From a virus, in IMG/VR virus record IMGVR_UViG_3300034374_001672, positions 1 through 32,367 of that record: DNA of 32,367 nt; one strand, written 5' to 3'. This document shows, piece after piece, positions 8,830-12,134 of the stretch (position 1 is its first letter; every line of letters starts with the position of its first letter). A program made the position numbers and the translations under genes. The notes beneath the pieces are model-generated. The model did not search any database and had not been told where the DNA came from. It saw only the letters and a list, made by a program, of their open reading frames with translations.

Positions 8830-9014
8830 TACTTACGGATCAATTTCTAGCCATTTAGAGCTCTTTTTAGAGATCCTATGAAGTTTTGTAAAAGTCAAGA
8901 AAAAAATTACATAAAATGAATTTTTTTTGGATAGATTTAAAAATAGATGAAAAAAATACTTGACTTTCTCATAAATTAGAATATTTTAAAATCATTAATA
9001 GGGATTAAAAAAAA

Positions 9015-9038
9015 ATAAAGTTAAATGATTAACTTTTT
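9015..9038. repeat. Genome palindrome, copy 1
   Basis: AAAGTTAA (9017-9024), ATGA, TTAACTTT (9029-9036): the same site with one base off (GTTAAA-TG-ATTAAC). It lies in the control region, 7 bases upstream of the TTGACA at 9044. Confidence 0.65.
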
Positions 9039-9043
9039 TTTAC

Positions 9044-9074
9044 TTGACACATCCAAAAATAATTTTTTACATTT
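9044..9074 (+). promoter_or_regulatory. Candidate promoter for the 9106 gene
   Basis: TTGACA (9044-9049) with TACATT at 18-base spacing, ending about 38 bases before the ATG at 9106. The palindrome copy at 9017-9036 abuts the -35, a position suited to an operator or activator site. Confidence 0.4.
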
Positions 9075-9105
9075 GAACTCAAATTAAATAGAAAGGTAAT
9101 TAATT

Positions 9106-9393
9106 ATGGCTAGTTTAAATAAAATAGGTACTCATGCAACTTCAGTTTACACTCATGAAGATACAACATACGTCAAGTATCATTACACAAACGTTGTCTC
9201 ATTCAATAGAGATGAAATTACATTAAATACAGGCGGATATTTCACGAATACAACTAAGACAAGAATGAACCAAACATCAAACCAATTTGGGTTGGGTTTT
9301 AGGGTTTATCAGAAAAATTTTGATTGGTTCGCTGAATATGACGGAAAGACATTTGAGTTTTTAAAAGATGAATTAACATTGGAAAGGGTTTAA
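9106..9393 (+). CDS. Hypothetical phage protein, 95 aa
   Basis: GAAAGG lies upstream of the ATG. The protein (MASLNKIGTHATSVYTHEDT start) is beta-rich, with YVKYHYTNVVSFN and GFRVYQKNFDWFAEYDGKTF segments, and looks like a small beta-sheet domain. It is the first gene of the rightward operon, so it is probably expressed early. I recall similar small proteins in phage genomes but cannot name a function. Confidence 0.75.
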   Translation: MASLNKIGTHATSVYTHEDTTYVKYHYTNVVSFNRDEITLNTGGYFTNTTKTRMNQTSNQFGLGFRVYQKNFDWFAEYDGKTFEFLKDELTLERV

Positions 9394-9394
9394 A

Positions 9395-9733
9395 ATGGAA
9401 TTTTTAATTATCAGAGATGAAGAAACCATTGGAGGTTTGAAAATCAATATGAATGAACATTCATTGCTAGATTTTAATCAAGACTTAGATTGGTTTTTAG
9501 AAACTAGATTTGAAGAATTTTTTGAAAATATCTGTAAAGATTTTTTAAATAATTTTGATGACTTTGAATTTTTAGGATTGAAAGATAAATTAGTTTCTAT
9601 GGATTTATGGAATAAATGTGATGTGTCTTGTAACGTCTTACAAGATTGTTTTGAGGTGTTAATATTTGGGGATGACGGATTGTTGGAATTTGAAATTAAG
9701 CCTTTGAATGATATTAAATTTTTTGAGGTTTAA
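9395..9733 (+). CDS. Acidic hypothetical protein, 112 aa
   Basis: Starts two bases after the previous stop. It is strongly acidic and Phe-rich (DFNQDLDWFLETRFEEFFEN in the middle), without cysteine pairs or membrane segments. Small acidic early phage proteins often act as DNA mimics or host-enzyme inhibitors; here that is only a composition-based thought. Confidence 0.7.
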   Translation: MEFLIIRDEETIGGLKINMNEHSLLDFNQDLDWFLETRFEEFFENICKDFLNNFDDFEFLGLKDKLVSMDLWNKCDVSCNVLQDCFEVLIFGDDGLLEFEIKPLNDIKFFEV

Positions 9734-9735
9734 AA

Positions 9736-9873
9736 ATGATGGAGGCAAAAATTAAATTAATTGAATGGATGGTATCTCATACAGATGAAAATGAATATTT
9801 TGAGATGGTTGAAAAGTTGGGTTTATGTCCGAAACAATCAGTTATTGAGGTATTATTAGGCATAGGAAAATAG
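9736..9873 (+). CDS. Small hypothetical protein, 45 aa
   Basis: ATG at 9736 just after the previous stop; it encodes MMEAKIKLIEWMVSHTDENE and ends LLGIGK. A double Met at the start leaves the exact start open. It looks helical. Its stop codon ends where the first ribozyme begins (the final G of TAG pairs in stem I), so ribozyme cleavage would cut this mRNA 50 bases after the stop. Confidence 0.6.
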   Translation: MMEAKIKLIEWMVSHTDENEYFEMVEKLGLCPKQSVIEVLLGIGK

Positions 9874-9929
9874 GTTCACTGAAGATGGGTTTTATACCCG
9901 AAACGCTCATTTATTTGAGCGTCTGAATC
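9873..9929 (+). ncRNA. Hammerhead-type self-cleaving ribozyme, copy 1
   Basis: Stem I: GGUUCA (9873-9878) with UGAAUC (9924-9929), 6 bp with one G-U. Core strand CUGAAGA plus an extra U (9879-9886). Stem II: GGGU-UUUAU-ACCC (9887-9899). Then GAA (9900-9902). Stem III: ACGCUCA (9903-9909), loop UUUAUU, UGAGCGU (9916-9922). C at 9923 completes the GUC cleavage triplet; cleavage is expected between 9923 and 9924. Stem I is open, so this is type I. It matches the hammerhead consensus CUGANGA/GAAA/UH except for one extra U before stem II, also present in copy 2. The downstream RNA would have a 25-base leader before the ATG at 9949. Confidence 0.85.
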
Positions 9930-9948
9930 AAATTAGAAAGGTAATAAA

Positions 9949-10518
9949 ATGAGTAAAAAAAACGTAGTTGTAAAACTAGAAAAGCCAACCGATGACGATA
10001 TTAAAAGCGTTATAAAGGCTGGGATTACACATAGTTTAGAACAGGAAAAAATGGCTCAAATTATAGTAGCTGATATTGTCAATATGAACAAACAACATTG
10101 CACAACAAAAATGACTAGGGCGTTGGATGATATTTTTGCGAATGGAGAGGCTGAAGAAATAGACAATACTAAAAAGTTTGTCAAAACTCAGTTGCAAACC
10201 ATCATTAAATCAAAAGCCGTTCAAACAGCTTTATTAGGTGAAGATATTAAATTAAAATCTTTGACTATTAAAAAAGTAAACAACGGGGTTCTAGATGGTG
10301 ATAAATGCCTAAATAAAGACAAATTTCAAGATAAGCACTTAGGTTTGTTTAGGGTTATAATTGAGAGCAAGAAAACAACCCCAAAGTCATTTGATGAGGA
10401 ATTGTCAAAACTTATGGAGAAACATGGCAAACACGCACATGACCTTATAAGTAGTGCTTTGAATTGGTTATCAGTGGAACAAGTTATGGAGGAACTCGAG
10501 ACAAAACAAGTTGCCTAA
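9949..10518 (+). CDS. Hypothetical protein between two hammerhead ribozymes, 189 aa
   Basis: GAAAGG lies upstream of the ATG. A lysine-rich, mainly helical soluble protein (MSKKNVVVKLEKPTDDDIKS start; VIIESKKTTPKSFDEELSKL near the C terminus). No known motif or membrane segment is recognised. It is the only gene between the two ribozymes, so it would be released as a 655-nt monocistronic RNA (9924-10578) with a 5'-hydroxyl and a 2',3'-cyclic phosphate end. A high-level early product, perhaps DNA- or RNA-binding, is a guess from charge and mRNA processing. Confidence 0.8.
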   Translation: MSKKNVVVKLEKPTDDDIKSVIKAGITHSLEQEKMAQIIVADIVNMNKQHCTTKMTRALDDIFANGEAEEIDNTKKFVKTQLQTIIKSKAVQTALLGEDIKLKSLTIKKVNNGVLDGDKCLNKDKFQDKHLGLFRVIIESKKTTPKSFDEELSKLMEKHGKHAHDLISSALNWLSVEQVMEELETKQVA

Positions 10519-10524
10519 TCCTAT

Positions 10525-10584
10525 ATTATACTGAAGATGACCTAATGAGGTCGAAACAGGGGTTTTATATCCCCTGTCTATAAT
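10525..10584 (+). ncRNA. Hammerhead-type self-cleaving ribozyme, copy 2
   Basis: Stem I: AUUAUA (10525-10530) with UAUAAU (10579-10584), then one mismatch and three further possible pairs reaching GG of the downstream GGAGG. Core strand CUGAAGAU (10531-10538). Stem II: GACC-UAAUGA-GGUC (10539-10552). GAA (10553-10555). Stem III: ACAGGGG (10556-10562), 8-base loop, CCCCUGU (10571-10577). C at 10578 completes GUC; cleavage is expected between 10578 and 10579. All stems differ in sequence from copy 1 yet pair in the same places, while the core is identical, which is strong covariation support. Cleavage would leave a 20-base leader with a freed GGAGG before the ATG at 10599. Confidence 0.85.
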
Positions 10585-10598
10585 TTGGAGGAATTATC

Positions 10599-11177
10599 AT
10601 GAACTTAAAACAAATTGAGAAATCAAAGCTATTTCAAGATGATTGGAATAATTGCACTGTAATTGCCTCATCAATAGCTTTTAATTTAGACTATGACAAA
10701 ACAAGTCGATTTTATACCCTACATGGTAGAAAATGGAGAGATGGCTTATATCATTGTGATACTGATAGAATCATCAAACTATTAGCCGAGCAAGAGGGTT
10801 ATGAAGTTGATTTTTTTGCCTTTGATAAACATGAGGCAAAAAGATTGAAAGGCGTTTATAATTGGAAGAGAGGAAAATTTATAAAAAGACCTCATTTTCA
10901 ACGTTATAAATTCCAAGCTGACAAAAAGAATCCAATGGATTTAATGACCTTAACTCACAATCTAACGCCTAATAATCAGCATATGTACTTAGAACGGGGT
11001 AATTATATTCTAGGCTGTCAAGGTCATGTATTAGCTGTTAAAAATGGATTTGTGGAAGATTGGACAGAGGGTAGAAAACATAGAATAAATAAAATTTGGA
11101 AGATAACCAAAACAGGAAAAAAAGTTAAACCTTTAACTTTTTCAGAATACTTCAATAATAGAGAAAGGTTGCTATAA
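10599..11177 (+). CDS. Possible papain-like cysteine peptidase or related protein, 192 aa
   Basis: Strong GGAGG eight bases before the ATG. An N-terminal DDWNNCTVIASSIAFNL places a conserved-looking Cys19 at the start of a helix, and near the C terminus GNYILGCQGHVLAVKNGFVE supplies His143 followed by Asp154 (VEDW). This Cys - His - Asp order, with His in a GHxLAV strand, resembles papain-like folds (C1/C39/NlpC style), but I cannot name the family. A copy of the genome palindrome lies in codons near 174-181 (KVKPLTF). It follows the second ribozyme and its stop overlaps the next ATG. Confidence 0.7.
   Translation: MNLKQIEKSKLFQDDWNNCTVIASSIAFNLDYDKTSRFYTLHGRKWRDGLYHCDTDRIIKLLAEQEGYEVDFFAFDKHEAKRLKGVYNWKRGKFIKRPHFQRYKFQADKKNPMDLMTLTHNLTPNNQHMYLERGNYILGCQGHVLAVKNGFVEDWTEGRKHRINKIWKITKTGKKVKPLTFSEYFNNRERLL
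11119..11142. repeat. Genome palindrome, copy 2
   Basis: AAAAAGTTAAA (11119-11129), CC, TTTAACTTTTT (11132-11142): a perfect 11-bp inverted repeat inside the end of the 192-aa gene, translated as KVKPLTF. Confidence 0.75.
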
Positions 11178-11552: not shown

Positions 11553-11722
11553 ATCACTTATCTGTTTTTCTAGCTATTTGTATAGGATCAATTTTTGGCT
11601 TCTTTATATTAGGTGGTCATTATTTCCTTGTATATCTCAATGTATTATTTCCTAGTTTATTTTGGATTTACATGTTAAGTTTACTGATCAAAAAAATAAA
11701 AGGCTTTATATATGGGACATAG
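11549..11722 (+). CDS. Small membrane protein, 57 aa, two TM segments
   Basis: GGGAGG lies just upstream of ATG 11549. Two hydrophobic segments, about residues 4-22 (LSVFLAICIGSIFGFFILGG) and 27-47 (LVYLNVLFPSLFWIYMLSLL), followed by a basic end (KKIKGF). The topology would allow a holin-like or membrane-anchoring role, but it lies in the early region far from the endolysin, so a role in superinfection exclusion or host takeover is equally possible. Confidence 0.65.
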   Translation: MNHLSVFLAICIGSIFGFFILGGHYFLVYLNVLFPSLFWIYMLSLLIKKIKGFIYGT

Positions 11723-12134
11723 ACAATGTAAAATTTGCTTGGTAATAAAACCAAAAACAGAGGAATTTTTTTATAAATCTGGTGGTGGTGGTAAAAGAAA
11801 AGGATTAGATATAAATGGTAACCCTTACCTAACCCACAAATGTCGAGATTGTTTTTGGACTCATAAAAAGAATTTGCCTAGTGGCAGGATTGCAAATAGA
11901 AAACGATTAAACGCTTATAAATTAAAGGCTAGTTGTAGTTGTGGTTATTCCCTGAAACGAGACAAAGAAAGATTTAGTACAAGGTCGCTGACATTTCACC
12001 ACGAGCATAATAATAAAGTGGCTAATATTTCTAACATGATGAATCATTCATGGAAAAAAATATTAAAAGAAATTAATAAATGTATAATTATATGTTTTAA
12101 TTGCCACATGGCTCTACATGGAAAGGAGGGATAG
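11712..12134 (+). CDS. HNH endonuclease
   Basis: 140 residues. Zinc knuckles Cys6-x2-Cys9 and Cys44-x2-Cys47 precede the HNH core: LTFHHEH (His96/His97), then after a loop IICFNCHMALHG with Asn130, Cys131, His132 and His136. This is the beta-beta-alpha metal nuclease pattern; similar free-standing proteins in phages are homing or packaging/recombination nucleases. It starts inside the preceding membrane-protein gene and is followed by a GGAGGG ribosome site for the next gene. No intron is visible nearby, so it would be free-standing. Confidence 0.83.
   Translation: MGHRQCKICLVIKPKTEEFFYKSGGGGKRKGLDINGNPYLTHKCRDCFWTHKKNLPSGRIANRKRLNAYKLKASCSCGYSLKRDKERFSTRSLTFHHEHNNKVANISNMMNHSWKKILKEINKCIIICFNCHMALHGKEG

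Follow-up and report, generated by a model that had tools for sequence, protein, structure and literature searches.

The DNA analysed is a viral stretch of 32,367 nucleotides (IMG/VR record IMGVR_UViG_3300034374_001672), called the window below. A block of genes read from its + strand includes a short open reading frame followed by genes coding proteins of 189 and 192 amino acids, and a hammerhead ribozyme lies ahead of each of the two larger genes. The features, with the evidence for each in brackets, are the following.

9736 to 9873, + strand: 45-aa open reading frame 5' of copy 1 (sequence reading)
9873 to 9929, + strand: copy 1, type I hammerhead ribozyme with extra-U core (descriptor scan, fold, covariance model, ortholog covariation)
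9873 to 9878, + strand: copy 1 stem I 5' strand GGUUCA, partner UGAAUC at 9924-9929 (scan, ortholog alignment)
9879 to 9885, + strand: copy 1 core C3-A9, CUGAAGA (descriptor scan)
9886, + strand: copy 1 extra U, position 10, between A9 and G10.1 (scan, orthologs, wider survey)
9887 to 9899, + strand: copy 1 stem-loop II, GGGU-UUUAU-ACCC (scan, ortholog alignment)
9900 to 9902, + strand: copy 1 core G12 A13 A14 (descriptor scan)
9903 to 9922, + strand: copy 1 stem-loop III, ACGCUCA-UUUAUU-UGAGCGU, with A15.1-U16.1 at its base (scan, ortholog alignment)
9923, + strand: copy 1 C17, predicted cut 9923/9924 (motif position)
9924 to 9948, + strand: predicted 5'-OH leader of the 189-aa gene, RBS GAAAGG (sequence, leader-distance statistics)
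9949 to 10518, + strand: 189-aa gene, with a ribozyme on either side (orthologs in eight loci bracketed alike)
10525 to 10584, + strand: copy 2, type I hammerhead ribozyme with extra-U core (scan, covariance model, ortholog covariation)
10525 to 10530, + strand: copy 2 stem I 5' strand AUUAUA, partner UAUAAU at 10579-10584 (scan, ortholog alignment)
10531 to 10537, + strand: copy 2 core C3-A9, CUGAAGA (descriptor scan)
10538, + strand: copy 2 extra U, position 10 (scan, orthologs, wider survey)
10539 to 10552, + strand: copy 2 stem-loop II, GACCU-AAUG-AGGUC (scan, ortholog alignment)
10553 to 10555, + strand: copy 2 core G12 A13 A14 (descriptor scan)
10556 to 10577, + strand: copy 2 stem-loop III, ACAGGGG-UUUUAUAU-CCCCUGU (scan, ortholog alignment)
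10578, + strand: copy 2 C17, predicted cut 10578/10579 (motif position)
10579 to 10598, + strand: predicted 5'-OH leader of the 192-aa gene, GGAGG at 10587-10591 (sequence)
10599 to 11177, + strand: 192-aa gene 3' of copy 2, PHROG 3754 (profile match)

In both copies three helices surround the core and stem I is open to the flanks, as in type I hammerheads. Copy 1 reads GGUUCA-CUGAAGA-U-GGGU/ACCC-GAA-ACGCUCA/UGAGCGU-C^UGAAUC and copy 2 AUUAUA-CUGAAGA-U-GACCU/AGGUC-GAA-ACAGGGG/CCCCUGU-C^UAUAAU (^, predicted cut). Stems I, II and III have 6, 4 and 7 base pairs in copy 1 and 6, 5 and 7 in copy 2. The core positions C3 U4 G5 A6 N7 G8 A9 and G12 A13 A14, the A15.1-U16.1 pair and H17 are all present, and stem II does not begin directly on A9: an extra U (9886 and 10538) stands between them. 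The stop codon TAG of the upstream frame (9871-9873) overlaps the first base of copy 1 stem I, as it does in L372, L374 and other related contigs, and the start codons of the two genes lie 25 (copy 1) and 20 (copy 2) bases beyond the predicted cuts.

An earlier note on this DNA had placed two type I hammerheads at these positions, in the leaders of two genes, each with a complete core, a GUC triplet and an extra U. Reading of the sequence and the descriptor scan agree with it, both elements being intercistronic and ahead of the 189-aa and 192-aa genes, and its predicted cuts match C17 of the motif. Its stem lengths hold for stems I and III and for stem II of copy 1, and stem II of copy 2 has to be corrected from four to five base pairs. 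The departure from the seven-base core is confined to the extra U, since CUGAAGA itself is canonical (its base 7 is N7 in the published consensus).

The descriptor used for scanning both strands combined the core CUGANGA, GAA, A15.1-U16.1 and H17 with stems of at least 4, 3 and 4 bp, and it tolerated as many as 3 additional bases following A9. It matched exactly twice in the 32-kb window, at copies 1 and 2, and gave no match in 100 first-order Markov shuffles of the window. Scans for both permutations and for relaxed cores found no type II, type III or mutant-core hammerhead in the window. The minimum-energy structure of copy 1 is the hammerhead, including stem I (z -4.1). For copy 2 stems II and III form (z -3.0), while its 6-bp, all-A/U stem I is outside the minimum-energy fold, with a pairing probability that varies from about 0.05 to 0.9 with the length of flank included.

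The Rfam hammerhead models, which the earlier note had proposed running, matched neither window copy at gathering score, and a permissive E-value brought no usable identification either. The sole related hit was that of copy 2 to the RAGATH-1 hammerhead RF03152 (23.1 bits; gathering score 56.3), for which copy 1 had no reported match. This is the nearest Rfam model: the canonical copy 2 of the ortholog L005 reaches 41.4 bits (E 3e-4), also below 56.3, and the model differs from the window copies by including a hairpin upstream and lacking the extra U. The type I family RF00163 (Hammerhead_1) scores 27.4 bits on a canonical neighbour, L267, below its gathering value of 34, and does not reach the window copies. 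A covariance model was built from 24 unrelated phage hammerheads with the extra U (U10), this locus left out; the complete pairing of its members is a consequence of their selection and carries no evidential weight. Copy 1 receives 61.6 bits from this model (E 3.6e-13), and copy 2 receives 30.0 bits (E 2.9e-5). The model finds nothing else in the window up to E 10, recovers all 16 of the 16 ortholog copies and detects seven copies in each of two array-bearing phage records.

With the 189-aa and 192-aa proteins as queries, eight further orthologous loci and one near-identical contig were obtained; L370/L371 and L377/L378 are near-duplicate pairs in this region. A hammerhead is present at both positions in all the orthologous loci, and the elements are absent from L379, a homologue at greater distance with about 40% identity. 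Alignments were built with MAFFT without structure, and slid pairings served as control. Standard pairs occupy 128 of 128 cells in copy 1 and 134 of 134 in copy 2, against 23-37% and 33-49%, respectively, for the slid pairings. A stem change without compensation, named in the earlier note as what would speak against the elements, was thus sought in 262 pair cells, all of which are standard. Both sides changed in 14 pairs, seven in each copy; stem I of copy 2 is invariant across the orthologs and gives no covariation information either way. Both elements are genuine type I hammerheads, in which self-cleavage 3' of H17, giving a 2',3'-cyclic phosphate and a 5'-OH, is predicted.

The extra U marks the two copies as a variant and, by analogy with a viroid RNA, is compatible with membership of the class. 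The CChMVd (+) hammerhead has an extra A10 between A9 and G10.1 and is active (De la Pena and Flores 2001, via PMC3705267); changing A10 to U made cleavage 3-4-fold faster, while C or G was harmful. Viroid and window RNAs are alike in having one extra base at the same core site, but there it is an A in a viroid RNA and serves RNA replication, whereas here it is a U in phage gene leaders on many unrelated contigs. The original paper of De la Pena and Flores reportedly also notes a U insertion at that site in two natural hammerheads.

A first scan with the CUGAAGA-U pattern picked up further such phage hammerheads. When A or C was substituted for the U as a control, no more than two turned up, and a scan for the canonical core gave 44. 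The final scan, run to completion on the viral collection with a more specific pattern, left N7 free and accepted A, C or U as the extra base; an inserted G was left out because it would read as stem II. It returned 102 stretches that reduce to 66 distinct hammerheads with paired stems, the extra base being U in 64, A in one and C in one. This bias fits the viroid biochemistry, in which U sped up cleavage and C or G was detrimental. Applied to bacterial and archaeal genomes (257 Gb), the same pattern gave 19 stretches, and only three properly paired hammerheads came out of them, located on two metagenome-assembled contigs and all with U.

The extra U is linked to which bases form the second pair of stem II. 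Among 218 pooled distinct hammerheads, stem II of the U10 kind starts with GG in 78, GA in 13 and GC in one (purine at 10.2, 91:1), and canonical ones start with GG in 38, GC in 37, GT in 24 and GA in 22 (60:61). The contrast has a Fisher p of 6e-18, or 1e-13 after identical stem II elements are collapsed, with kinship among contigs only partly removed. It persists on the 17 contigs that hold both kinds (25:0 for U10 against 15:22 for canonical, p = 3e-7, kinship again partly removed), so that genome composition does not account for it. A coupling of the extra U to A7 was considered and rejected: position 7 of U10 ribozymes is U, A, C or G.

Both window copies have the features proposed for the U10 group, namely the U, a stem II starting with GG or GA, a 6-bp stem I and an intercistronic position. 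In the phage set at large almost every stem I has 6 bp and a closing G-C pair, an A precedes it in 91% of cases, AA follows it and loop II is mostly UNANU. Copy 1 follows this flank and loop pattern except at the third loop base, and copy 2, with loop AAUG and a U before stem I, departs from it. These regularities of sequence suggest a putative tertiary contact between stem I and loop II in the phage group.

The state of the core differs between close relatives. The extra U is found in both copies of L374, in copy 1 only of L375 and in neither copy of L373, L376, L377 and L378, despite mutual identity of 94-98% among L373-L378. In L372, the L005 contig, whose protein is 51% identical to that of the window, both copies have CUGAUGA with no extra U, and N7 is A, U or G within this same ortholog set. 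The extra U is thus gained and lost among close relatives and is a polymorphic option of the core. A concerted switch of both copies within one lineage is rejected as a strict rule by L375, although the U clusters by genome (17:32 for neighbours of U10 ribozymes, 0:26 for neighbours of canonical ones, p = 3e-4).

Copy 1 of L375 (1052-1108) has stem II in common with an element of L370 (3923-3981), and almost all of stem III, while the adjoining proteins are 48% identical, a likeness that suggests recombination of ribozyme modules between distant phages. The gene before copy 1 (window 9000-9872) varies among L372-L378, the next gene being 94-98% identical. Among several phages with a near-identical downstream gene, the last few hundred bases 5' of copy 1 cannot be aligned, and the copy 1 ribozyme therefore forms the edge of an exchangeable gene slot.

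The intergenic placement extends to the phage group. Among 98 phage hammerheads with sufficient flank, an upstream stop codon lies at -15 to +3 of stem I in 61 (12.6% at random positions), most commonly touching stem I or overlapping it by one base, and an open frame starts within 60 bases downstream in 82 (random, 41%); both hold for 53 of the 98 (54%, random 5.1%). The 5' strand of stem I often ends in UAA directly before CUGA, as in L415 (1427-1490), so that the ribozyme holds the stop codon of the upstream gene. L398, L409, L261 and L415 carry five to seven hammerheads each between consecutive genes (e.g. L409, 6752-12016, + strand), and some of these arrays mix canonical and extra-U cores.

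Tandem intergenic use, put forward in the earlier note as part of what may be a distinct variant, had already been described. The survey of Perreault et al. 2011 (PMC3088659) reports tandem hammerheads flanking phage genes, proposes that they cut transcripts into single-gene mRNAs and shows cleavage in vitro for three tandem prophage arrays. The type I elements of phages and prophages given there have the same three stems, CUGANGA, GAA, A15.1-U16.1 and H17, and the same clusters flanking single genes; the window copies differ from them by the U between A9 and G10.1. That survey dropped any element with a core mutation or core-adjacent mispairing, a filter that may be the reason why the U10 group went unseen. 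The suggestion of a distinct variant has to be recast: an extra base at this site was known from the viroid, and what is distinct is a sizeable phage subgroup with its purine-10.2 rule. The subgroup, its specificity for U, the purine rule and the rapid gain and loss appear new within an incomplete coverage of the literature.

At Rfam 15 gathering scores none of more than 30 descriptor-defined hammerheads was matched in ten phage loci including L261 and L415, canonical ones among them. Short-stem phage hammerheads are probably under-counted, a practical gap left by these thresholds.

It is likely that the two elements are active type I hammerheads of the U10 subgroup that cut a polycistronic phage mRNA in cis; insulation of each gene and stabilisation of the new ends would follow from general knowledge of RNA decay. 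Each would cut the nascent shared transcript just 3' of C17, between a stop codon and the next RBS, and the 189-aa gene would be freed as a single-gene mRNA. That mRNA would begin with a 5'-OH and a 25-base leader holding its own RBS; its 3' end would comprise the stop codon, the rest of the ribozyme and stem-loop III ending in the 2',3'-cyclic phosphate. Some decay enzymes act only where the 5' end is phosphorylated or the 3' end is single-stranded and free, and both new ends may resist such enzymes. Every gene would also be insulated from its upstream context. Synthetic insulators of the RiboJ type place an engineered hammerhead between the upstream sequence and the RBS, which frees the leader from its context, and the phage elements may be their functional analogues. 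The all-A/U stem I of copy 2, with its strongly context-dependent pairing, is a point against this explanation.

Within cis-cutting by these ribozymes, the extra U would be a tolerated and probably beneficial option of the core. In a solved hammerhead the sheared A9-G12 pair lies beside the G10.1-C11.1 pair (PMC11300833), and A9/G10.1 is a metal site (PMC6257768). The U would bulge between these two pairs and rely on the purine at 10.2, possibly through a contact with that base or a shifted metal site. A stronger version makes U10 a structurally distinct subclass of active core, with the bulged U contacting purine 10.2 (for instance in a Hoogsteen triple, or with the A9/G10.1 metal site shifted) and phages exchanging it with the canonical core to tune the rate for each gene; this version is plausible and falls short of likely. 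Nature has set up the relevant experiment: dozens of phage contigs carry the U that sped the viroid hammerhead and near-identical phages do without it at the same site. What the U does in the structure, and what a faster cut is worth, can thereby be put to a direct test. These contigs also show a near-absolute preference for U and an unexpected tie to the second stem II pair.

Cleavage might instead be slow or conditional, responding to ions, a ligand or a ribosome at the abutting stop, and the ratio of cut to uncut RNA would then set downstream expression. A ribosome terminating at a stop codon that overlaps or abuts stem I, as is frequent in the group and as the window TAG does on base 1, should disrupt stem I; that of copy 2 is weak, and conditional phage hammerheads are discussed by Perreault et al. 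(PMC3088659). Such regulation is nevertheless unlikely: stems II and III change fast with compensation, the loops are short with no sign of a ligand-binding domain, and U10 is the version that raised the rate in the viroid test (PMC3705267). Predicted RBS accessibility is hardly altered by cleavage, and a translational on-switch that works by RBS masking is accordingly unsupported.

Far less probable is that the elements are non-cleaving structured leaders or degenerate hammerheads damaged by the extra U. In favour of this reading, the U is off the published consensus and a core insertion at another site lowers activity. Against it, the viroid U10 RNA is active and faster (PMC3705267). The stems co-vary in orthologs, and the inserted base is nearly always U, turns up in dozens of contigs and is linked to purine 10.2, whereas decay would leave mixed bases and broken stems. 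Weakest of all, and barely credible, is that the RNA of the bracketed gene is cut at both sites and its ends joined into a circle, a notion that draws on the two hammerheads around one gene and on the ability of hammerheads to ligate. Perreault et al. (PMC3088659) sought spliced or circular products of the prophage arrays and found none, and where 3-7 ribozymes form an array, they border many genes and not a single replicon.

No clear promoter or terminator was found between the genes. Stem III of copy 2 as an intrinsic terminator is at chance level (one found, 1.0 expected) and has no proper U run after it, and the TATAAT in copy 2 stem I has no properly spaced -35 in the + strand list. Further upstream, at 9010-9073, the A/T-rich inverted repeat GTTAA-ATGA-TTAAC is followed by a T run and then by TTGACA-18-TACATT, a possible terminator and promoter heading the gene block, in a region where promoter matches occur at chance number.

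The 189-aa protein has no PHROG or Pfam match and no relatives among cultured phages, and its predicted structure (mean pLDDT 47) was set aside. In the 192-aa protein (PHROG 3754) a Cys, GHV and Asp-Trp are conserved and follow one another as in papain-like or C39-like cysteine proteases, and from these residues a cysteine protease may be guessed. Beyond the block, at 11712-12134, lies an HNH endonuclease gene (PHROG 2255), at about whose place the L005 relative has another gene.
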